A stretch of 38,575 bases of DNA, from positions 1-38,575 of the IMG/VR virus record IMGVR_UViG_3300039106_000191; one strand, given 5' to 3'. The stretch comes from a virus. The notes below the pieces were generated by a model. The model did no database searches, was not told the DNA's origin, and was given only the letters and a program-made list of their open reading frames with translations. Each line of letters starts with the position of its first letter. Positions within the stretch are counted from its first letter, which is position 1. Below, piece by piece: positions 3,255 through 38,575 of the stretch. Position numbers and translations under genes: made by a program.

Positions 3255-6200
3255 TAGTTACCCTTTTCAATAAGCCCTCTACGGGCAAGTTCTTTAAGCA
3301 AATCAGCGGTATCAAACTGTTTTCCAATTATGGTTCCACGCTCCTCACGCTCACCTACTTCACGCACAGGAACACCAAACTCACTCAACCATGAACTGGC
3401 TGTTCGTTCCTGATAAGTTGGTTTACCACCAAGAAGCCCACCAGCAAGACGCTGAATCTTAGCGATAGTAGGAATAGCGTTACCAATACCGTAAGAAACA
3501 AACGGGTCAAGTTCTGTTTTGCCATCAGCATTGACACGAGCAAGAGGTCCCTGACTAAACGGAAGCCCCGTATCGCCTAACACCTTCTTGCTTATTTCTG
3601 CTATCAACCTGTCCAAGCCTTTAGCCTCGTCATATTTGTCTGTAAATGGAACCCCGTTAGACATTTGTTTACGGGCAATCATTTCAAAAGGCAACTTATA
3701 TGTAGGATACATTTGACCAATTAGTTTAGTTGGACTAGCAAATGCCTCTGCCTGCTGTTGCAGGCGAGTCATTGGCAGGTCAGGAGTAAGAAGCCATTTA
3801 CCAGCCAGACCCATAGGACCCTTTTCCTTTAACCATTCAGGCATAATCACATCAGAACTAACAGGGTTCCTATCCTTAATGTTCTGATACTGCATGTACG
3901 CCTTCGGGCGGTAAATCTGTTCAGTCATTTGTAGTGGGATGTTGCGTGTAGTCCAAATCCAAAACGGAACAAACTTCTTGGCTACTTCATCTAACTTGGA
4001 CAAATCGCTATAATCAAAATGGTAACGAGTCACACGATAGATAGCCTCATCATAAGACAACCCACGCTTTAATGTGTCTAAAGCCATAGGGAACCGTGCT
4101 GCTCTCTCCGTGAAATCGTTACCCTTACCTGCGGTACGAGTGAACCAGTTATCCATTGTCTTATTATAGATTTTAGAAGCACGGCTGCCTTTAAGTAAAG
4201 GTTGCGTAGCGATTTCGCTTTGCAACCCACGACCCGTAGCATCAACAGCCCGAAGTGCTGATTCATAAATTTCACGCATTGCAGGTTCAACAATGCCAAG
4301 TTCATCCAACCATTTTTCAGGTCCATGTTTAGCCAAGAACCCCATAGCCTTCACACCTTCACCGATGTTATCCACACCAACACCAGCAACATAGTTCATA
4401 AATGTTGAAGAAATAGCATTACGAGTTATAAACCCAACACTCATCGTTGCATAAACTTTAAAGAACTGATGATATTTCATAACAGAGTCACGCAGCGCAT
4501 TTTGATTTGCTCTAGTTTTTAACTTGTCAATTTGTGGACGAGCAATATCATAAAAATCTGGTGGCACTTCAATACCAAGACCATCACCCAAAGCCTTCCA
4601 ACCCTGAGTAAAATCATCCTTTAATATTCCACCAATAGCACCACTCATTGCTAAAGCAAGTTCGTTATCAGCCATAGGAATTAATGTTGAATCCAACAAA
4701 GCCAACTGTGCCTCATCGGCATGTAACTGTGTAACAACACGCTCCCAAGCCCTTGCTTCGGGCGTGTCGCCCATCTTGGGAATGTTGTTCATCGTGTCAC
4801 GAACCTTGTCAGCCCACTTACGGGCAGAGGTACCAGCGGCACCATCAGGTGCATCCGTAGCGATAGCCTGACGCACAAGGTCAATGTCAGCCTGTAGGGC
4901 TGCACCAGTGTTCTCACCCCAGTTTTCCAACACCTTACGCTGGTCCAGCAAAGTACTCAATCGTTCTTCCTGAACCAATTTACGAATACGCAATTTCTCA
5001 GCATCACCAGCACCAATATTACCAATACGAACCTCTAGGTCAGCAACAAGATTATTAATCTTGGTTTCTTTCTCGTTAAGAATAGAAATAGCCTTCTCAC
5101 GAGTAACTTCAATCTTTTTACCACGATAGGGAATGGTAACAGTTTTAAAAGCCTCATAATCTTTCCAAGCCCTATCAGCCTCTTTCATACGACGAGAAGC
5201 CTCACGCTTAACAACACCCATTTTCCCAGCAACACTACGAACCTGCGTCTGTGCAGCATCCCTCATAGTTAAAGCATCCTGCAACATTCTGCCCTCAGTT
5301 GTAATAGCATCCAACTTTTCAATAGCCCCAAGAGAAGCAGAGACATAATCAGAATTAGCAACCGACTGCATTAACTCGTCAGTAGTGCGAAACACAGGAG
5401 AAGTAGTACCATCAACAAGACTAGCATCTACCGCATCTTTACCATACTGCTTAGAATAAGAAAATCCATCAGGAAGCATAATTGAATAAGCACCATCAGC
5501 CAACGGGTTGTCCAAGCCATATAGCACACCTGATGGAAGCAACAGGGGTTTGCCTGTTGCGCCCATTCCTTCTTCAACCATAGCCCGCATAAAGTCCTGC
5601 ATCATTTGGTCGCCAACATAATCAGAGTTTTCTAAACCAAGTTCAGCCGCTGCGTCTTTAAAGTTTTGACGAACAACATCAAATGACTCATTAAGGAAAT
5701 CATCAGCGACAACACCCAACTCAAACTTTTGGGAACTCAAACCAGCAATGGTGGCTTGCAGTTCCGACAAAGCAGGATAAACCTGTTCAAACATTGGGTC
5801 AATCTGACCTGACTGAAGCATTTCGTTCCACGAATCAACAAACACACCGTCAGGGTCAATCCCTGACTGTCGCAAAGCAAAACCAGTTGCTTCACCAACA
5901 CCACCAGCAGGGTCCCAGAAATCATAATAATGTTCTGGCTTACGCATGTCATGCATAGAATCAGTAGGGATAGCGTGTGCGCCGACAGAACGACCATCCT
6001 GCATAAACGCATTCTGAATAGCAGACATTTCATCTGTAGTCATATCAGCGTTACCCGCAACCATTGGGCGTGTAGAAATTACACGACCAAGTGGGTCAGC
6101 ATTAGGGTCAAAAGGACGAGCAACCAAATCATCATAGGTTCCATAAAGAAAACCATCCTCTGAATAGTCAGCAGCATAACGAACCTCACCCAACGCCGCA

Positions 6201-18716: not shown

Positions 18717-20462
18717 CTACTGTGGAGGTTGTCCCTGCATCTGCTGCAACTGTGCCATCATCTCAGGAGTTAAACCCTGCGGTGGTGCCCCTGCCCCCTC
18801 TGGGGGCATTGGACCACCCTGAGGTGGCATACCACCCATCTCAGGTGGTTGTGGTGCTGCTTGGACAAACTTCTCTGGGTTCTTAATGTTGAAACCAAAT
18901 TGCAACACATAAGAAGCAAGTTCCTGCATGTTAACAATACCAGCACCAGCAAACGGAGCCAAAGCATCAACAAGTTGCAGAGTCTGTTGACGGCGTTGCG
19001 ACTCATTGTGGGGTTGCGTAGAGCCACCCACTACTTCAAAGTCAAACTCACCCTCAAGATACTCACGGTCAAAAGTAACCCAAAACGGTTCACCATCTTT
19101 ACCAACAAGACGAGCAACCTGCTCACCAGTCATATACTGCTGAGCAAGCATAACCATACGGCGAGCAACCTCAGAAATAGCCATCTCAACAATAGCCAAC
19201 TTGTCTGCTGTCCGAGCATTAGCAGCATCGGCAACAGCCGAAATTTCTGTAGCAGTACGGCGAATCTCAGGGATTCCGCCGTTCATAAACTCAGGCAAAC
19301 CAGTAATACGGTTAATGTCGTTAGTAATCATTTCCGACTGGTTATAAAACTCAGGAGGACTAATTATGGCAGGGAATGCGGAGACAACATTGCCGAGTGG
19401 CTCATCAGAAACCACAGGGACCATAACATTGTCCTCATCAGATTCAAGGGCGCTACGACCAAACTGGTCAAACGCTGATTCCTTATAGAGGTACTTGCGT
19501 GCAAACCGTTTACGATGATTCATCATCTGTGAACGGGTTTCATTCAACTCACGCTGCAATGGTTCAATCTGCTCTAGGTCGCCAATGGGGTAAAAAACAT
19601 CAGGCACATCATAATTCCGAAGCATAACAAAAGGATGTCCAAAAGCATAAGGCATCTTAGTTGGTTTAATAAGGAACGATTCACCACCGTCACTAAAAAC
19701 CGACATCGTTTTATTACGGATGTCATAATATTCCCAAATTTCTGCATAACCATAATTCTTGTCATAAACCTTACGCTGACTAGGGTCCTCACTATAACGA
19801 CTAACAGCCATAATAGTAACTTCTTCACGAGCAGTCTTATTGTACCGTTTATCCGACTTCACCTCAGCAAGAGGACGACGGATGCGTTGAGCAATCCACT
19901 TAGCATCATGCATAGATGTAGCATCAGAGTCTATAAACACATCAAACACTGACACCCGTTCTGCAAACGGGGAGTCAACCGTTATGACAGAATTACTAGT
20001 AGATTCACCACCAGCAACATTGTCATTGTAATCACTTTCAGTATCTTCACCAATTGAAGCCTCCTCAACAAAACGGTAACCAGTTTTAATCCAGCCATGC
20101 CCACAGATAAGCAGGTCTTTAACCGAACGGCGAAACTCCTCACGGATACTGCGGTATCTCCACCAGTAGTTAACAACAGCCTCAGCAACAACCGCATTAG
20201 GTGCGTTGTCGGGCTTTGTAGCGTTGACAGTAATCTTAGGGTAGTTAATAGCCACAGCAGGAGCAATAACATTAATAGTGGAGAACGAAATGTTAATCAA
20301 CATTCTGTCCTCGTCACTATAATGGTCATAGTGTTTACCTTTGTAAATATCAATTAGACGCTTCCATGTAGCGTCGTACCCTTCATCTTTGCGCCACTTT
20401 TTGGAGGCGTTAAGATGTTCTCGGTATGTTGATAGTTGTTCGGACTGTGGTTTACGAGCCAT
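18717..20462 (-). CDS. Portal protein
   Basis: The 581-residue protein matches P22-like/podoviral portals: an N-terminal helical part (WKRLIDIYKGKHYDHYSDEDRMLINISFSTINVIAPAVAINYPKI), a wing region with VKDLLICGHGWIKTGYRF, and a stem region with EPLQRELNETRSQMMNHRKRF. A crown part contains TATEISAVADAANARTADKLAIVEMAISEVARRMVMLAQQYMT, and the tail is Pro/Gly/Gln-rich and low-complexity (about 540-581). Twelve copies form the channel through which DNA is packaged and ejected. It sits upstream of scaffold and capsid genes and downstream of the terminase. Confidence 0.92.
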   Translation of the reverse strand: MARKPQSEQLSTYREHLNASKKWRKDEGYDATWKRLIDIYKGKHYDHYSDEDRMLINISFSTINVIAPAVAINYPKITVNATKPDNAPNAVVAEAVVNYWWRYRSIREEFRRSVKDLLICGHGWIKTGYRFVEEASIGEDTESDYNDNVAGGESTSNSVITVDSPFAERVSVFDVFIDSDATSMHDAKWIAQRIRRPLAEVKSDKRYNKTAREEVTIMAVSRYSEDPSQRKVYDKNYGYAEIWEYYDIRNKTMSVFSDGGESFLIKPTKMPYAFGHPFVMLRNYDVPDVFYPIGDLEQIEPLQRELNETRSQMMNHRKRFARKYLYKESAFDQFGRSALESDEDNVMVPVVSDEPLGNVVSAFPAIISPPEFYNQSEMITNDINRITGLPEFMNGGIPEIRRTATEISAVADAANARTADKLAIVEMAISEVARRMVMLAQQYMTGEQVARLVGKDGEPFWVTFDREYLEGEFDFEVVGGSTQPHNESQRRQQTLQLVDALAPFAGAGIVNMQELASYVLQFGFNIKNPEKFVQAAPQPPEMGGMPPQGGPMPPEGAGAPPQGLTPEMMAQLQQMQGQPPQ

Positions 20463-28146: not shown

Positions 28147-28424
28147 TGGCAAGCATCAAACGAGGGTCAGAAACATTCAGTGGATACAACAAACCCAAAG
28201 CCACACCCAACCACCCAACCAAATCACACGCCGTCTTAGCCAAACAAGGCAGCACAACAAAACTAATAAGGTTCGGACAAAAAGGTGTAACAGGGTCACC
28301 AAAGAAAGCAGGCGAATCAGCAGCATACGCTGCACGCCGCAAATCCTTTCAAGCCCGCCATGCAGCCAACATTGCCAAAGGCAAAATGTCTGCTGCATAC
28401 TGGGCAAACAAAGTCAAATGGTAA
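28146..28424 (+). CDS. DUF5872-like small basic protein
   Basis: The 92-residue protein contains SHAVLAKQGSTTKLIRFGQKGVTGSPKKAGESAAYAARRKSFQARHAANIAKGKMSAAYWANKVKW, which matches the DUF5872-type pattern (K-x-I-R-F-G-Q-x-G ... R-R-K-S-F-x-A-R-H ... G-K-x-S-A-A-Y-W-A). These domains are common in phages and have no established function. It overlaps the previous stop as TAATG and ends 13 bases before the tRNA gene. The conserved Arg/His/Trp end suggests nucleic-acid contact, an inference. Confidence 0.75.
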   Translation: MASIKRGSETFSGYNKPKATPNHPTKSHAVLAKQGSTTKLIRFGQKGVTGSPKKAGESAAYAARRKSFQARHAANIAKGKMSAAYWANKVKW

Positions 28425-28437
28425 ACCCCACCACCAA

Positions 28438-28513
28438 TCTCCTCTAGCATAACTGGCAGTGCAACGGACTGTTAATCCGTCAAGTCTTGGTTCAAGCCCA
28501 AGGGGGAGAGCCA
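28438..28513 (+). tRNA. tRNA-Asn (anticodon GTT)
   Basis: The full cloverleaf folds by hand. The acceptor TCTCCTC pairs with GGGGAGA (one G-U). The D-arm is GCAT/GTGC with an 8-base loop containing GG, and the anticodon stem ACGGA/TCCGT has loop CTGTTAA (anticodon GTT at 28471-28473). A 5-base variable loop, T-arm CTTGG/CCAAG with loop TTCAAGC, discriminator G and an encoded CCA end complete it. It may compensate for Asn codon use (AAC/AAT are frequent in the structural proteins) or replace a host tRNA cut by defence nucleases. Confidence 0.95.
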
Positions 28514-28595
28514 CACACAGGGGTATCCCACCCCCCTCCAGAAACCCCCAAAATAACGCATCGGCTCTAGGTTGGTTAGTACTTAGACACATGCA

Positions 28596-28619
28596 CCCCC
28601 GCACCCCCCCATGCCCCCC
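28596..28619. repeat. Three C-runs with 3-base spacers
   Basis: C5-GCA-C7-ATG-C6. The complementary strand has three G-runs with very short loops, long enough for a four-tract quadruplex if the seven-base run is split. More C-runs occur 40-70 bases upstream. Confidence 0.6.
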
Positions 28620-29117
28620 TAGCGCACAGGGAGTTAGCAGTGGGATAGTGTTGGTGGCATTGGATTATAGTCCGATTATGCACCCATAATCAGCCAAAAA
28701 ATAGAATGCATTCATCGTGCACGCCCATAACTGCGTACCGTGTGCATGTATGAGGCGCATGTATTTCCTGTGACATGAGAATCGTGCGCATTATGCCTGC
28801 CATTCGGCGGTTGGGGGCGACGATGGAATCGTTGTGATGGGGCGTCTGTAGGCAAGGCGAGGCAGTTTCCACAATTTTTTTTTCCTATATGTGGCAAGGG
28901 TTTGAGAGTTAGTTTCGTTATGGATGGTTGCAAAGTGATTCAGTGTTGGTCCATGATATTGGGGCAATTCGGCATTCCAATAGTGTCGGGTTGAGTCATG
29001 GTCACGGGATGAGCCATGACGGACTAGGTAGTGCTATCGGGATGATGCAGTTACCTAGCCCTAGCAATAGCGATGCAGTGCTTGCCACTGTCTGAGGTTC
29101 GTCTAGTACATTATACG

Positions 29118-29133
29118 ATTTAACAAGTTAAAT
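29118..29133. promoter_or_regulatory. Palindrome ATTTAAC-AA-GTTAAAT
   Basis: A perfect 7+2+7 inverted repeat whose centre AAC-N2-GTT is shared with the palindrome at 29174-29189, with 56 bases between centres. Equal size, spacing and core suggest two sites for one dimeric DNA-binding protein upstream of the early operon. Confidence 0.55.
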
Positions 29134-29140
29134 GGTAATG

Positions 29141-29164
29141 CTAGGACATGATTGGTTGTCCTAG
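29141..29164. promoter_or_regulatory. Inverted repeat CTAGGACA/TGTCCTAG
   Basis: An 8-bp perfect stem with loop TGATTGGT. The flanks AATG and TGTT (29137-29168) extend it with A-T and G-U pairs. It lies between the two 16-base palindromes. No T-run follows, so regulatory structure is more likely than termination. Confidence 0.5.
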
Positions 29165-29173
29165 TGTTATTGT

Positions 29174-29189
29174 TATGAACTTGTTCATA
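29174..29189. promoter_or_regulatory. Palindrome TATGAAC-TT-GTTCATA
   Basis: A perfect 7+2+7 inverted repeat with the same AAC-N2-GTT centre as 29118-29133, followed by a further half-site-like GTTCAC at 29192. Candidate operator overlapping the early promoter region; no good -35/-10 pair could be fixed by eye. Confidence 0.55.
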
Positions 29190-29226
29190 CTGTTCACGGT
29201 ATGCTTGCTGGCATGGCAGATAAGCG

Positions 29227-29244
29227 ACAAACCTTAGGGTTTGT
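29227..29244 (+). other. Leader hairpin ACAAACC-TTAG-GGTTTGT
   Basis: A perfect 7-bp stem with a four-base loop, 25 bases before the tRNA-like fold. If transcription starts near the palindromes at 29118-29189 it would lie in the 5' leader of the early mRNA. Confidence 0.5.
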
Positions 29245-29268
29245 TGGGACTGTCCTTAATTCATGTCG

Positions 29269-29341
29269 TCAAGGTGATAGTCACACACCTCTTAATGGAG
29301 TTAAGAGGTGTGAAAAGGTGCGATTCCTTTACCTTGTACCA
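29269..29341 (+). ncRNA. tRNA-like fold without D-arm, in early leader
   Basis: Exactly 73 bases fold like a tRNA lacking its D-arm. The 5' acceptor strand TCAAGGT pairs with ACCTTGT (six pairs plus a T-T end mismatch). A T-arm follows the pattern AAAGG-TGCGATT-CCTTT (5-bp stem, 7-base loop) directly before the acceptor strand, and the end is A-CCA (29338-29341). The middle is a single 12-bp hairpin CACACCTCTTAA/TTAAGAGGTGTG with loop TGGAG, replacing D- and anticodon arms. It is either a decayed tRNA or a mimic used in mRNA processing or regulation. A standard tRNA is excluded. Confidence 0.4.
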
Positions 29342-29370
29342 CTACTAAAGTAGTGACCTTATCCTTATTT

Positions 29371-29389
29371 AATTTACTGGAGGTAAATT
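29371..29389 (+). promoter_or_regulatory. Ribosome-site hairpin 1: AATTTAC-TGGAG-GTAAATT
   Basis: A 7-bp stem touches the ATG at 29390, with the Shine-Dalgarno core in loop and closing pair (TGGAGG). One further pair forms between T29370 and the A of the start codon. Same architecture as five others to 33494. Confidence 0.8.
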
Positions 29390-29644
29390 ATGGAAACAAC
29401 AACAATCATCACGAACTCTAAAGAGTTCATTGAATCAAAAGTCCAACTTGGTTGGAAAATCACTGACACCATCCATTGGGATGAGGAACCTCTTTTTGAC
29501 ACCGAAGGTGTTTGGATGGATAATGTCAATGTAATTGACTACCATTTTGAGGATGCCGAAGGCACCCCGATGGGTTCTTTGCAAGTTGTTGTCGGTGAGG
29601 AACTCACCGAGTCATCATGGATGGACTTTGATTGGGACTTCTAG
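29390..29644 (+). CDS. Early hypothetical acidic protein (84 aa)
   Basis: The 84-residue product (METTTIITNSKEFIESKVQLGWKITDTIHWDEEPLFDTEGVWMDN...) is acidic and rich in Trp and Asp, with no family recognised. It is the first gene after the non-coding region and the first of six genes preceded by a ribosome-site hairpin, so it is probably made early. Its acidic character would suit a DNA mimic or a host-takeover protein, but nothing specific shows that. Confidence 0.65.
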   Translation: METTTIITNSKEFIESKVQLGWKITDTIHWDEEPLFDTEGVWMDNVNVIDYHFEDAEGTPMGSLQVVVGEELTESSWMDFDWDF

Positions 29645-29674
29645 TCCCAACTTTGTCCATCATTATACACAATC

Positions 29675-29693
29675 AATTAACTGGAGGTTAATT
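29675..29693 (+). promoter_or_regulatory. Ribosome-site hairpin 2: AATTAAC-TGGAG-GTTAATT
   Basis: A 7-bp stem next to the ATG at 29694. Compared with hairpin 1, two stem positions are changed on both arms together (TTA to TAA, TAA to TTA), so pairing is kept by compensatory change. Confidence 0.8.
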
Positions 29694-29882
29694 ATGCAAA
29701 CTGGAGATAAAGTAATCTTTACCTTAGGTAAGAGACAAGGGCAAATTTGGGAAGTCGCTTGCGACAATGGGGACGATTTGGAACTTGTTCCAGTTGATTC
29801 CAACCCAAACATGCCACGACCAACTTTGTTGGTCAATAAATACATCGTCCGTCTTAACAACGAAGTTGAATCTCGTTACTAG
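29694..29882 (+). CDS. Small hypothetical protein (62 aa), SH3-like pattern
   Basis: The ATG at 29694 directly follows hairpin 2 and gives MQTGDKVIFTLGKRQGQIWEVACDNGDDLELVPVDSNPNMPRP then TLLVNKYIVRLNNEVESRY. A longer frame opening at 29535 overlaps the previous gene and is ignored. The pattern G-D-x-V-x-F ... G-x-I-W-E-V ... L-E-L-V-P resembles small SH3/KOW-like barrels that bind nucleic acid or polymerase, an inference. It is the second gene of the early operon. Confidence 0.65.
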   Translation: MQTGDKVIFTLGKRQGQIWEVACDNGDDLELVPVDSNPNMPRPTLLVNKYIVRLNNEVESRY

Positions 29883-29900
29883 TAATTACTGGAGGTAATT
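29883..29900 (+). promoter_or_regulatory. Ribosome-site hairpin 3: TAATTAC-TGGAG-GTAATT(A)
   Basis: A 6-bp stem before the ATG at 29901, with a seventh pair using the A of the start codon. The loop is again TGGAG. Confidence 0.78.
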
Positions 29901-30074
29901 ATGTCAATGTCCCGCAAAAATTTTGAGGCTATTGCTGAAGCAATAAACAAAGCCAGTGAATGTGACAACACAGAGGAATTGCTTACCGTGTTGTTTCTTG
30001 AACTGTCCATGCATTTTCTAGAAGAAAATTCTCAATTTGACAGTGAAAGATTCGCTAAGGCTTGTGGCTTTTAG
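29901..30074 (+). CDS. Small hypothetical protein (57 aa)
   Basis: Hairpin 3 leads into a 57-residue frame beginning MSMSRKNFEAIAEAINKASE and ending ERFAKACGF, with a helical, amphipathic look (TEELLTVLFLELSMHFLEEN). The frame resembles small phage proteins of the pattern R-x-x-F-x-x-I-A-x-x-I ... F-x-x-A-C that occur in many environmental phages. Its function is unknown. Its stop codon lies in the 3' arm side of a 7-bp hairpin (30062-30080). Confidence 0.7.
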   Translation: MSMSRKNFEAIAEAINKASECDNTEELLTVLFLELSMHFLEENSQFDSERFAKACGF

Positions 30075-30175: not shown

Positions 30176-30194
30176 TAATTACTGGAGGTAATTA
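30176..30194 (+). promoter_or_regulatory. Ribosome-site hairpin 4: TAATTAC-TGGAG-GTAATTA
   Basis: A perfect 7-bp stem two bases before the ATG of the AAA+ gene at 30197. It is the only one of the six not touching the start codon. Confidence 0.8.
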
Positions 30195-30196
30195 CA

Positions 30197-31486
30197 ATGG
30201 CAAATCCAAAACCAACCATCCTGAGTGTAGATAAATCTACAAACCGAGTCACTTATTGTGACCATCTCGGAGTCACGAGAACCGATAGGTTCTCGTTTAT
30301 GCCGAAGAACGGTCAAACCGCTGCTTTATCCTTTATAGGATATAAATTCACTGGTCGTCCTCCTATGCATTTCACTTCTAGTGAAATTAGCGAGGCTTGG
30401 ACAACTGCTTTAGCAAATTACAATCCAACACCAACTACTGAATCGGAGATTCCAGTGCCACCAACACCACAACCAAAACCACTTCCAAACACCACTTCTA
30501 GTGGTGGTATGGATGATTTCATGAAGCAACTTATCGCTCAAGTTCTTGGGGACTTTGTCCCTGAGGTTGACGCTAGTAAGGTTGCCGAAATCGTAAACGA
30601 TTCCATTAAGGAACCACTTGAGATTATGGCTAAAGCCACTGCCGAAGTTGCCGACCTACGGTCTGCTGTTGATAGGCTTCGTCCGAAAGTTACTCATGTT
30701 ACCCTTGGTAACAATGAGAGGAACGAATTAGAGGGTATTCAGCATAATATGTTTGCTAAGGTACTTAGCACCATTAGCAGAGGTAACCATCTCTACCTTG
30801 TAGGTCCTGCTGGAACTGGTAAGTCAACCATTGCAGAAAATGCTAGTCAAGCCTTAGGGCTTGGTTTTAGTAGCAAGTCTTGCTCTAGCCAGTCAACCGA
30901 GGCAAGTTTACTTGGTTATATGTCAGCCACTGGTGGTTATGTCGGAACTTCGTTCCGAACAGCATATGAAACTGGTCAAGTATTTCTACTTGACGAAGTG
31001 GATAATGGTAACCCGAATATCCTCACTGTTCTTAACAGTGCTTTGTCTAACACTTTCATGTCCTTTCCTGATGGAATGGTGAGTCGTCACAAGAACTTTG
31101 TTCTTGTTGCTACTGCTAATACCTTTGGTAATGGTGCTACTGCTGAATATGTTGGTCGTAATGCTTTGGATAAAGCATTTCTTGACCGATTCGTTAGCCT
31201 GAATATTGATTATGATGCCGACATTGAGCAAGCAATGCTTGATTCTGTCAAGGGACTTGACGGTAATATCGGAACTCATTGGCTACAAGTAGTCCGAAAA
31301 GCACGAGCCAATGTTTCAAACTATGGTTTGAAGGTTGTGGTTTCACCACGAGCCACACTTGCTGGTGCTAAGTTGCTTTGCGACAAGGACATTTGGACTA
31401 TGGCAGAAGTTATGGAATCTACGATTCTTGCTGGTGTCAAGGATGACCAAAAGGTCAAAATCATGGAAGGTATAACCCTCAAGTAG
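30197..31486 (+). CDS. MoxR/CobS-like AAA+ ATPase
   Basis: The 429-residue protein has an N-terminal part (1-75) of unknown fold, a Pro/Thr linker (76-105), a helical region (106-165) and a C-terminal AAA+ domain. The latter shows Walker A GPAGTGKST (203-211), Walker B VFLLDEVD (262-269), sensor-1 VATANT (304-309) and an arginine finger in LDRF (329-332). It belongs to the AAA_5/MoxR-type group that remodels partner proteins, often working with a VWA-like partner encoded next door. Here the next gene is a conserved partner, so the two likely form one machine. Strong hairpin ribosome site. Confidence 0.85.
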   Translation: MANPKPTILSVDKSTNRVTYCDHLGVTRTDRFSFMPKNGQTAALSFIGYKFTGRPPMHFTSSEISEAWTTALANYNPTPTTESEIPVPPTPQPKPLPNTTSSGGMDDFMKQLIAQVLGDFVPEVDASKVAEIVNDSIKEPLEIMAKATAEVADLRSAVDRLRPKVTHVTLGNNERNELEGIQHNMFAKVLSTISRGNHLYLVGPAGTGKSTIAENASQALGLGFSSKSCSSQSTEASLLGYMSATGGYVGTSFRTAYETGQVFLLDEVDNGNPNILTVLNSALSNTFMSFPDGMVSRHKNFVLVATANTFGNGATAEYVGRNALDKAFLDRFVSLNIDYDADIEQAMLDSVKGLDGNIGTHWLQVVRKARANVSNYGLKVVVSPRATLAGAKLLCDKDIWTMAEVMESTILAGVKDDQKVKIMEGITLK

Positions 31487-36564: not shown

Positions 36565-37629
36565 ATGACTCCGAATTTCACGGAGCGTTGGGATGCACTT
36601 GGGCGTGGGGAGTTAATCCCCACGCCTGATGTGTCTAACGCCACAAAAACAAGACAATATTATGAGCCTTTAGTAAAGGCAGCGGACGAGTTTGTTCATT
36701 GGGCACAAAACCCCAACGAGCGTGTCTATCTAGGTTTCCCCGACATTGACAACGAAATGCGTGGCATCGCACCATCAGAGATGTGCATGATTAACGGTTA
36801 TAGCCATTCAGGTAAAACCATGTTCCTGCTACAGATTCTATTAGCCAATAGAAACCTGCCCGTTGTGTACTTTTGTCCTGACGAGCCACGAACCTTGACC
36901 TTGATTAAGTTGACTTGCATTATGCATGGCATTGACGCTGGTGAATTAGAAATGGCTGTAGCCCGTAACGATACGGATGCTATAAAGTTGTTGCGAGAAA
37001 CTGCTAACGAGTCGTTTCCTAAGTTGGCTGTCTTTGACCAAATGATGAGCCTTAATGAGATGGAACATTCACTTGGCGAAATTCGTGACATGTGGGGTCA
37101 ACCTGCGTTGCTTGTCTTTGACTATCTTGACTTGCTTGCTGGCGGTGGTGAGGACATCCCATCTAAAGCGAACACGATTAAGTCGTTCGGTAAACGCCAT
37201 AATATCCCGATGCTGGTTTTGCACCAGTCATCACGCACCGCAGGTGCTGATGGCAAGAAGCAAACCATCTCATCAGGTGCTTATGGTGGCGAACAACAGG
37301 CTACACATATCATTGGTGTACGCCGTAAGAAGTTTGACATTGAAGCACAGATTCGTGAGATTGAAGAACGCTTGGACAAATCAAACAACACTGAACGCCT
37401 GCTGGAACGGCTAGAAATGTTGCGTTATGATTTGCGTATCCATCAGAACACTGTCACTATCAACCTTGTAAAGTGTAAACGCCCTGCGTCTAAACTGGTG
37501 GATGATGTGGACTTTGAGATTGAACAGGGCACGGGTCGTTTAACACGGCTCACAGGTCTGCCTTCAACCATCCCCACAGTGGCAGATTCGTATGAACAAC
37601 TAGCACTTGCAGATGATGATTGGATTTAG
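36565..37629 (+). CDS. DnaB/RecA-like replicative helicase
   Basis: The 354-residue protein has Walker A GYSHSGKT (78-85), a catalytic Glu/Asp-containing strand VVYFCPDEP (100-108), Walker B LLVFDYLDLL (182-191) and a sensor-like LHQSSR (219-224). It lacks the N-terminal DnaB primase-binding domain, as is common in short phage helicases. An insertion of charged helix (IREIEERLDKSNNTERLLERLEML) occurs before the last strands. It probably unwinds DNA together with the primase encoded two bases downstream. An AAGGAACAAC site precedes the start. Confidence 0.85.
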   Translation: MTPNFTERWDALGRGELIPTPDVSNATKTRQYYEPLVKAADEFVHWAQNPNERVYLGFPDIDNEMRGIAPSEMCMINGYSHSGKTMFLLQILLANRNLPVVYFCPDEPRTLTLIKLTCIMHGIDAGELEMAVARNDTDAIKLLRETANESFPKLAVFDQMMSLNEMEHSLGEIRDMWGQPALLVFDYLDLLAGGGEDIPSKANTIKSFGKRHNIPMLVLHQSSRTAGADGKKQTISSGAYGGEQQATHIIGVRRKKFDIEAQIREIEERLDKSNNTERLLERLEMLRYDLRIHQNTVTINLVKCKRPASKLVDDVDFEIEQGTGRLTRLTGLPSTIPTVADSYEQLALADDDWI

Positions 37630-37631
37630 TT

Positions 37632-38540
37632 ATGGACATAACAGAGGACCTGCTTGACAGGTATATAAAACTGTTCAGAGGCAGAGGCGATGTGTACGGT
37701 GCCGAAGAAGGCGCTTGCATTAAAGAACCTTTGACTAGAGAAGTGTTCCGCAACCACCTTAACGGTGTTGCTCCTATTGGTGTGTACCCGATGGTTCCTT
37801 TAAAGGACGACTGGTACACAGTGTGGGGTTGCACGGACATTGATGTTGAGGACATGGCTGGAGCCTTTAATCTTGCATCAGCGTTAGAGGCTGGTGGTGT
37901 GCAACCTTTCGTGGAGAAGTCTCGTAGCAAGGGCTACCATGTTTGGGTGTTTGCATCCGAACTGGTGCTGGCACGAGACATGCGCCGTATGATGCTGGCT
38001 GCCCATCAGGTAGCCGACTACCCTGCTCGTGAAGTGAACCCTAAGCAGGAGACACTTGCAAGCACATCACAGTACGGCAACTATGTACGGCTTCCATATC
38101 CTGACTGGTCCAACATGGAGAAACCAAACAGGCGTATAATTACTTCAGCAGGAGTTGCTGGTTCTTTGGAATCGTTTCTTGATTATGCCGAGGCTCGTTT
38201 AGTTTCTCCAGAAACAATTGCCCGTCTGGCATCATATTATCAGCCACCAAAACCAAATCTTAGTTTGGTTACCGACCATGAGGAATCAGCAAACCTTAAA
38301 GACATTATGAAGCGTTGTTCACCTTTGGCTTATGTTATTTGGCGTGATGGTCCATTGCCCAATAATGACCGTTCACGAACACTGGCACGACTGGCTCACG
38401 AACTTGTTCGTAGTGGACTTCACCCCAGTGAAACCAAACTCATAATCACATCAGCAGACAAGCGTTGGGGTAAGTACCACATGCGTACTAACGGTGAATT
38501 AGAGATTGATAAACTCGTACAACGGGTTTATACAACCTAG
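37632..38540 (+). CDS. Archaeo-eukaryotic primase (complete copy)
   Basis: The ATG two bases after the helicase stop gives 302 residues; a TTG at 37620 inside the helicase gene is unlikely. The AEP core shows the catalytic D-x-D in CTDIDVED (68-74), the nucleotide-binding SRSKGYHVWVF (97-107), NPKQE (136-140) and GNYVRLPYP (149-157), as in TOTE-type and phage primases. The C-terminal 90 residues resemble a helical primase C-terminal domain (DRSRTLARLAHELVRSGL). It makes primers, and because no other polymerase is seen it could also extend DNA (PrimPol activity), an inference. Confidence 0.9.
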   Translation: MDITEDLLDRYIKLFRGRGDVYGAEEGACIKEPLTREVFRNHLNGVAPIGVYPMVPLKDDWYTVWGCTDIDVEDMAGAFNLASALEAGGVQPFVEKSRSKGYHVWVFASELVLARDMRRMMLAAHQVADYPAREVNPKQETLASTSQYGNYVRLPYPDWSNMEKPNRRIITSAGVAGSLESFLDYAEARLVSPETIARLASYYQPPKPNLSLVTDHEESANLKDIMKRCSPLAYVIWRDGPLPNNDRSRTLARLAHELVRSGLHPSETKLIITSADKRWGKYHMRTNGELEIDKLVQRVYTT

Positions 38541-38575
38541 AAAGCAGTAACATGCAACACACCATCATTATACAG
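37833..38575. repeat. Right copy of 743-base terminal near-duplicate
   Basis: Gap-free alignment to 1-743 with an offset of 37832 bases, which gives the likely unit genome length. Differences are spread along the stretch and mostly silent. The right copy continues into the first codons of a second RusA-like gene. Confidence 0.9.
38552..38575 (+). CDS. rusA: RusA-like resolvase, 3'-truncated at contig end
   Basis: The first eight codons (MQHTIIIQ) of the gene complete at 720-1061 (MQHTIIIE) are cut by the window edge. Four of 24 bases differ from the left copy, continuing the strain-level divergence seen in the primase gene. Confidence 0.8.

Follow-up and report, generated by a model that had tools for sequence, protein, structure and literature searches.

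An early leader with a tRNA-like element

The window analyzed here is the whole 38,575-nucleotide (nt) virus record IMGVR_UViG_3300039106_000191, which has its late genes on the minus strand and its early genes on the plus strand. The leader region starts with an ordinary tRNA-Asn gene, which was called by both ARAGORN and Rfam and is kept in many relatives. It continues as a noncoding, hairpin-rich leader of about 750 nt, after which comes the tRNA-like element at positions 29269 to 29341 described below. The first early open reading frame (ORF) encodes 84 amino acids and found no match in PHROGs; the early AAA ATPase gene downstream of it was used to gather related loci. The features of this region are as follows.

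28438-28513, plus strand: tRNA-Asn(GTT), opening the leader region
29270-29275, plus strand: 5′ acceptor strand CAAGGT
29276-29282, plus strand: mini D-arm GA-TAG-TC of 2 bp
29284-29312, plus strand: 12-bp hairpin CACACCTCTTAA-TGGAG-TTAAGAGGTGTG at the anticodon-arm position
29314-29330, plus strand: T-arm AAAGG-[TGCGATT]-CCTTT
29331-29336, plus strand: 3′ acceptor strand ACCTTG
29338-29341, plus strand: 3′ tail ACCA
29340-29355, plus strand: hairpin CACTAC-TAAA-GTAGTG, which starts within the CCA
29371-29389, plus strand: hairpin AATTTAC-TGGAG-GTAAATT with a Shine-Dalgarno sequence in its loop
29390-29644, plus strand: first early ORF
30197-31486: early AAA ATPase gene

The Shine-Dalgarno hairpin that precedes the first early gene is repeated before later ones, and such small A+T hairpins with TGGAG in the loop were seen at 29371-29389, 29883-29901 and 30176-30194 and also at 29663-29701. 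At the ends of the window, positions 1-740 and 37833-38572 are copies of one another along 740 nt, with an identity of only 93.6%, and part of the ORF at 37620-38540 recurs at 22-708; this end repeat may represent an imperfect terminal redundancy or a mixed assembly.

The large noncoding phage RNAs GOLLD and ROOL are found close to tRNA genes (PMC12286853), an arrangement that the tRNA-Asn gene and the roughly 750-nt noncoding leader of the window resemble. Unlike these RNAs, the leader had no Rfam match: the GOLLD and ROOL models found nothing in 28400-29700 (E ≤ 10) or in the relatives scanned, and this identity was rejected as lacking Rfam support. A distant-mode search of the 1-kb leader against phage records returned no matches.

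Anatomy of the element and comparison with chance

The element reads T-CAAGGT / GA-TAG-TC / A / CACACCTCTTAA-TGGAG-TTAAGAGGTGTG / A / AAAGG-TGCGATT-CCTTT / ACCTTG-T / ACCA. The sequence-only reading of this stretch had proposed a tRNA-like fold with paired acceptor strands, a 5-bp T-arm with the 7-base loop TGCGATT and an A-CCA end, and these parts are indeed present. The strands at 29270-29275 and 29331-29336 form six Watson-Crick pairs, the T-stem (29314-29318/29326-29330) closes a 7-nt loop at 29319-29325, and ACCA occupies 29338-29341. The acceptor stem has six pairs and not seven, because the outermost layer counted in that reading, T29269-T29337, is a U.U mismatch; the acceptor/T-arm stack of the window thus comprises 11 pairs and one U.U layer. 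The statement that a D-arm is lacking had to be corrected, because a tiny D-hairpin is kept at 29276-29282 and, as shown below, is compensated in a relative. Its loop residues A279-G280 correspond to tRNA positions 18-19, as G320-C321 of the T-loop do to 55-56. The 12-bp hairpin, a perfect inverted repeat (strands 29284-29295/29301-29312), had been taken to replace both the D-arm and the anticodon arm. The hairpin itself and its place at the anticodon-arm position were borne out, but the D-arm is not replaced, and the part that has been lost or exchanged is the anticodon arm. The hairpin loop has 5 nt, and the 7-nt anticodon loop of a tRNA is absent from the window element. The predicted fold has an energy of −26.7 kcal/mol, compared with −14.6 ± 2.9 kcal/mol for dinucleotide shuffles (z of −4.2), and none of 200 shuffles was as good.

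Programs that search for known RNAs, which had been suggested as a check, did not recognize the element as a tRNA. In the window, ARAGORN called the tRNA-Asn at 28438-28513 as the sole tRNA and no tmRNA. Rfam 15 at its gathering cutoffs had no match at the element, with RF00005 finding the tRNA-Asn only. Even at E ≤ 10 nothing overlapped 29269-29341, and the list held only the real tRNA and chance snoRNA matches. Identity with a tmRNA was accordingly rejected, with neither an ARAGORN call nor an Rfam match. The sequence GGTGCAATTCC is similar to the L4 loop of cobalamin riboswitches; this reading of the T-loop was discarded, as Rfam gave no match and the remaining parts of that fold are absent. 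We found no description of a related element in the open-access literature, to which our search was confined. With neither an Rfam match nor a published description found, the element appears to belong to an undescribed family of structured RNAs.

The leader has many other hairpins, which could speak for a chance cluster of inverted repeats. We scanned 386,499 bases from 41 viral loci for a strict architecture, namely a 4- to 7-bp T-stem, a 7-nt T-loop and 11 to 13 stacked pairs in total. The plus strand gave 38 matches, comprising 27 elements and 11 ordinary tRNAs, while the reverse strand gave none and dinucleotide shuffles gave 0 to 2 each (mean of about 0.35 over 20). Pairing among these matches is not evidence by itself, because the scan selects for pairing. 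Together with the syntenic positions and the compensating changes described below, the scan refutes a chance origin, to which we leave a negligible probability. The earlier judgment that the structure is more than a chance three-way junction is backed by conservation, compensating changes and syntenic position.

Conservation of the fold in related phages

Related loci were gathered through the early AAA ATPase, yielding 26 loci and then 80 with a profile, with some contigs present in both sets; gene boundaries in these relatives are mechanical ORF calls. The same element recurs, in the same gene gaps, in dozens of related phages whose sequences are largely different. Near-letter-perfect copies were present in four loci (L003, L004, L005 and L029). 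In L003, the D-hairpin is CT-TAG-AG where the window has GA-TAG-TC, so that both pairs are swapped in a compensating manner, and the T-stem AAGGG/CCCTT likewise compensates for AAAGG/CCTTT. Acceptor pairing is retained with other sequences in L008 (GGGCAA/TTGTCC) and L009 (CCACAC/GTGTGG), and the D-hairpin extends to 3 bp in L008 and others. The L008 element (GGGCAA, GGC-TAGT-GCC, AAGAACC-TAC-GGTTCTT, GCAAG-TGCAATT-CTTGC, TTGTCC-ACCA) keeps the T-loop and the flanking hairpin ACCACTACT..GTAGTG, but none of its acceptor, D, middle and T stems has the sequence seen in the window, and every one of them is paired.

The middle hairpin is missing in L009, L011, L016, L020 to L026 and L083, where a form of about 48 nt remains that consists of acceptor, D-hairpin and T-arm. 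What is conserved across the family is the acceptor/T-arm stack, the T-loop, a two-purine motif in the D-loop and a 3′ R-C-N-A; no conserved anticodon or anticodon loop was found across the elements. Measured from the elbow, the stack has the length of that of a tRNA, with 10 to 13 layers and usually 11 to 12, although the strict scan itself required 11 to 13.

Independent evidence for the pairing came from alignments built without reference to structure. In alignment A2 (5 sequences), 98.7% of the cells pair, compared with 32 to 61% when the strands are slid, and none of 500 shuffles matched the covariation score. In A3 (8 sequences), 100% of the cells pair and 17 of them are changed on both sides; for A8, 96.1% of the cells pair, and both partners have changed in 8 pairs. 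Because the aligned sequences are related, the shuffle counts do not amount to probabilities. The mixed-length MAFFT alignments A5 and A7 were too poor for a model, and A8 was used instead. RNAalifold, unprompted, drew three arms in each of two alignments, namely acceptor, D and T for A2 and acceptor, middle and T for A3. A covariance model built from nine sequences (R1) recovered L094, L011, L063, L066, L073, L009, L008 and others, with 27 of 27 at E ≤ 0.5 on the plus strand; the window element was detected through its T-arm only (E of 0.32), because its middle hairpin is long. The T-arm and acceptor pairing, on whose conservation in relatives the sequence-only reading had been made to depend, was thus found conserved, and it is nearly certain that the fold is real and selected.

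An exact search for the T-arm pattern retrieved near relatives only. The ATPase profile found in bacterial genomes only distant cellular ATPases of 25 to 38% identity, the best match (L110) being without the element. In LeBron, Tunturi_4 and phiM5, cultured phages related through the ATPase or the gene after it, no element lay near the gene, and megablast for the nearest phages of L096 and L101 found none. A divergent copy was seen in L053 at about 1190-1290, with acceptor strands GCCAACTG/CAGTTGGC, the loop TTCATCA, which falls outside the T-loop consensus of the scan, and the tail ACTA. Upstream of the element in L008 (3990-4110) lie repeated modules of the form GCGCTGACATCGCAG-[GACAC..GTGTC three-way hairpin]-TTACTGTCC, and related pieces (ATTACCGTCC and ACTGTCC) precede the element in the window, L006, L009 and L011.

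Covariation between the D-loop and the T-loop

The two loops that meet at the elbow of a tRNA vary together in this family. Elements with AG (TAG) in the D-loop have the T-loop UGCRAUU, and those with GG in the D-loop have UUCRANU. Under a first-match rule, this pattern held for 46 of the 49 curated elements (Fisher p of 5e-11, a value that ignores relatedness in a hand-curated table in which near relatives are included and treated as independent). The 5′ acceptor strands for this table were corrected by hand with the help of synteny in L011, L074 and L078 to L080, where decoys occur. The three exceptions (L029, L008 and L026) have an earlier GG, yet TAG is also present in their hairpin loop.

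The switch between the two versions was observed at short range. It separates the window from L006, a near relative with an element in the same slot and an ATPase 93% identical, and it separates clear homologues, CCGCA-AGG-TGCGG with UUC in L092 and CCGCA-ATAG-TGCGG with UGC in L094. Both versions also coexist inside single genomes (L082 and L094). In tRNA numbering, position 18 varies with position 55, and G19-C56 is constant. In tRNA, residue 18 contacts residue 55 and residue 19 pairs with residue 56, which creates the flat face on which RNase P stacks (PMC4810234). The covariation suggests that the same contact would form in three dimensions in the element, including a putative A18-G55 geometry, and the A18-G55 and G18-U55 versions would then constitute a natural data set on the tolerance of the tRNA corner.

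The 3′ end and the following hairpin

The 3′ ends were compared in 42 elements (again a hand-curated table with near relatives treated as independent). Position 73 was a purine in 38, C74 was present in all 42 and A76 in 40. Position 75 was U in 25, C in 7, G in 7 and A in 3, i.e., a pyrimidine in 32 of 42. The family consensus is therefore R-C-N-A, of which the ACCA of the window is one instance, and not CCA; most elements end in R-C-U-A. A hairpin of at least 4 bp follows the element in 37 of 42 cases, compared with 43% at random places, and mostly begins 2 to 4 nt past the acceptor stem.

These data bear on the earlier suggestion that the CCA end serves for charging, which loses its basis when C75 occurs in only 7 of 42 elements and neither an anticodon nor an anticodon loop is conserved; aminoacylation of the element is unlikely. 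A worn-down or functional tRNA, such as an aminoacylated tRNA-like RNA, would account for the acceptor, T-arm and ACCA of the window element, and the tRNA-Met of MW202803.1, a phage related through its terminase, is apparently shortened in its D-arm. Such an identity has a very slim chance, as neither ARAGORN nor Rfam calls the element, many relatives have no anticodon arm, CCA is a minority end and the arms display compensating change instead of decay. Nor did we find support for erosion as the present state of a structure that keeps such changes in dozens of phages and occurs twice per operon in some. The best reading of the element is a kind of tRNA-like processing signal which, for want of an anticodon arm, falls outside the tRNA family.

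The RNA of RNase P pairs through U294-G293-G292 with R73-C74-C75 of its substrate (PMC12710915). Tails of the form R-C-Y are able to base-pair with the U-G-G face of the RNase P RNA described there, which may differ from that of the host, and R-C-G and R-C-A tails (10 of 42) would pair less well with the GGU of this RNA. The main alternative, because most members have no CCA and a hairpin starts right after the element, is that RNase Z or another 3′-side enzyme is the main reader. It would cut past the discriminator base, so that the next hairpin becomes the 5′ end of the early mRNA. RNase Z also clamps the elbow, and CCA is an antideterminant for it (PMC4919913), in keeping with the prevalence of R-C-U-A over R-C-C-A. 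The hairpin 2 to 4 nt past the acceptor stem of most elements would then give a protected 5′ end, like a hammerhead product with its stem I. This alternative nevertheless seems unlikely to us, since C74, invariant in all 42 elements, is expected for pairing with RNase P and unnecessary for RNase Z, and since the window element itself ends in ACCA, the RNase Z antideterminant.

Gene gaps shared with hammerhead sequences

The elements occupy two slots: slot A, where the leader gives way to the first early gene, and slot B, which separates that gene from the AAA ATPase gene. In slot B the element starts 11 to 27 nt past the upstream stop codon, and in both slots its end lies 33 to 116 nt (median of 47) before the next start codon. 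Eight loci (L048, L063, L064, L066, L073, L084, L092 and L094) carry mimics in both slots. In other loci the slot holds a match to the type II hammerhead instead, namely in both slots of L017, L019 and L068 and in slot B of L018, L056, L065 and L075. The slot B hammerhead matches lie −1 to 12 nt past the upstream stop codon. The two kinds also occur side by side, with a mimic in slot A and a hammerhead match in slot B in L065 and L056, and mimics in both slots followed by a hammerhead match further down in L063 and L066.

The L017 match, GGAC-GAAA-CACGGGGC..GCCCCGTG-TC-CGTGAG..CTCACG-CTGATGA-GTCC, fits the type II core and three stems. Our hammerhead script returned 21 matches on the forward strand, none on the reverse strand and none in three shuffles; in the window it found no hammerhead core (CUGANGA/GAAA). 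Rfam at its cutoffs reports none of these sequences and gave one weak type III alignment, so that they are putative active ribozymes.

To our knowledge, hammerheads have a single job, which is to cut RNA, and a tRNA mimic is not known to cut itself. If the hammerheads are active, the mimics that stand at the same gene borders most likely mark a cut as well. That the element is itself an unrecognized self-cleaving ribozyme with a tRNA-like fold would agree with the slots common with hammerhead matches and with the presence of other uncharacterized elements there (L013/L014). We consider this highly unlikely, as the conserved bases all fall in the tRNA elbow and the 3′ R-C-N-A, the stems change freely and no further invariant bases that might form an active site were seen. 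The element could also act bound and not cut, its fold shielding the early mRNA from 5′-3′ decay or binding a host tRNA-binding factor and so affecting the stability or translation of the downstream gene. Its position at a median of 47 nt (33 to 116) before start codons, followed by a hairpin and the Shine-Dalgarno hairpin, would suit such a role. An uncut element leaves the hammerhead matches in the same slots and the retention of R73-C74 unexplained, and we regard it as quite unlikely.

The hammerhead matches lie at 4513-4580, 4903-4963 and 8081-8141 in L017 and at 4582-4645 and 4891-4954 in L019. Matches between early genes were also seen in L068, L075, L065, L056, L054, L018, L022, L063, L066 and L070, with at most three per locus. 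In L013/L014, a repeated structure of the form CGGAGCCGTNTAYTG-[long GC hairpin]-GGTGGTACTCATCTCCGATGAGT, without an Rfam match, precedes both early genes (at about 4510-4600 and 4900-4960). Its loop CTCCG is able to pair with an upstream CGGAG, and it may form a pseudoknot and perhaps represents a third processing element.

A candidate RNase P mark in early mRNA

We propose, with a probability of roughly 0.6, that the element is a mimic of the tRNA elbow resembling mascRNA and that host RNase P cuts the early transcript there; processing by RNase P or RNase Z had been one suggestion of the sequence-only reading. The mimic would consist of an acceptor stem, a mini D-arm, a T-arm and a 3′ R-C-N-A, with the anticodon arm missing or exchanged for an arbitrary hairpin. 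RNase P is known to measure the T-stem/acceptor stack from the elbow (PMC4919913). The host enzyme would dock on the corner formed by the D-loop and T-loop, measure the acceptor/T-arm stack and cut at its 5′ side, i.e., at about 29269/29270 in the window. Such a cut would detach the early mRNA from its long noncoding leader, and at a second copy between genes it would fall behind the stop codon of the first gene; in either case the mRNA downstream would begin with a fold at its 5′ end. RNase Z may make a further cut at the 3′ side, which would yield an mRNA that starts with the next hairpin.

RNase P is favored as the reader because the parts that it recognizes, namely R73-C74, the elbow with its 19-56 pair and a stack as long as that of a tRNA, are kept, while the part that serves the ribosome and synthetase, the anticodon arm, is lost and is dispensable for RNase P. 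Against RNase P stand the CCA present in a minority of elements only, the following hairpin that overlaps the CCA and the variable base before the acceptor strand. With slightly less confidence, but still on balance, we think that, throughout this lineage of phages, two devices that can stand in for each other cut the early polycistronic RNA where one gene meets the next, namely self-cleaving type II hammerheads and anticodon-less mini-tRNAs read by host RNase P. If this is true, the phages would practice tRNA punctuation with purpose-built, nontranslating mimics, and the 18-55 elbow contact would exist in two mutually replaceable versions. The slot sharing would also assign a clear function to the natural hammerheads of these phages, namely cutting at gene borders, something that can rarely be demonstrated. 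Finally, the minimal members of about 48 nt would lend themselves to RNA engineering as compact RNase P tags.

Comparison with known systems

In mitochondrial tRNA punctuation, tRNA-shaped RNAs between genes mark the cuts in polycistronic RNA, and the punctuators are functional tRNAs; the phage elements, unlike these, are without an anticodon. C4 RNA, a small antisense regulator, is not known as a tRNA-elbow mimic that stands between cistrons and has D- and T-arms. According to the citation of Hartmann et al. 1995 in PMC12710915, the C4 antisense RNA of phages P1 and P7 is an RNase P substrate. By this description, and not by sequence, C4 resembles our element as a phage non-tRNA RNA that engages host RNase P, which for the element is a prediction.

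The closest anatomical parallel is offered by mascRNA and menRNA, the 3′ tRNA-like elements of MALAT1 and MENβ, which combine a reduced D-arm and an elbow with a long stem at the anticodon position and which RNase P cuts at the 5′ side (PMC11693755). They share with the phage element the acceptor and T-arm, a reduced D-arm that contributes two purines to the elbow, a longer stem with a compact loop at the anticodon position and the embedding in a longer transcript. They are parts of human nuclear long noncoding RNAs, whereas the phage element is part of an early mRNA. In addition, mascRNA is also cut by RNase Z and receives its CCA by addition, whereas the phage R-C-N-A is encoded and a second hairpin follows immediately. 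The phage elements further differ in their AG/UGC D-loop variants, in the many members without a middle hairpin and in the copies between genes. The likeness is one of anatomy only; we presume convergence and do not claim common descent. If the element is cut as proposed, a bacterial virus would mature its messenger by tRNA mimicry, a strategy known from human MALAT1.

Other viral RNA devices are related by location or task. In the haloviruses HF1 and HF2, a hammerhead variant stands 13 nt ahead of an early helicase gene, and the 5′ end found in vivo maps within 3 nt of the cut site (PMC3088659). Hammerheads of phages and viruses, both type II and variants, thus share with the element the location just before early genes, but their self-cleaving core is structurally unrelated to the tRNA mimic. 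Theta ribozymes adjoin phage tRNAs (PMC10879173) and, like the element in its proposed role, are phage RNA devices for processing transcripts that contain tRNAs; unlike the element, they are HDV-like and serve the maturation of real tRNAs.

A distant tRNA ancestry of the element is possible, and the shortened tRNA-Met of MW202803.1 (our locus L190) is a possible starting point for the mimic. In that genome, the ARAGORN calls for tRNA-Trp and tRNA-Met, at 19690-19837, overlap by 9 nt.
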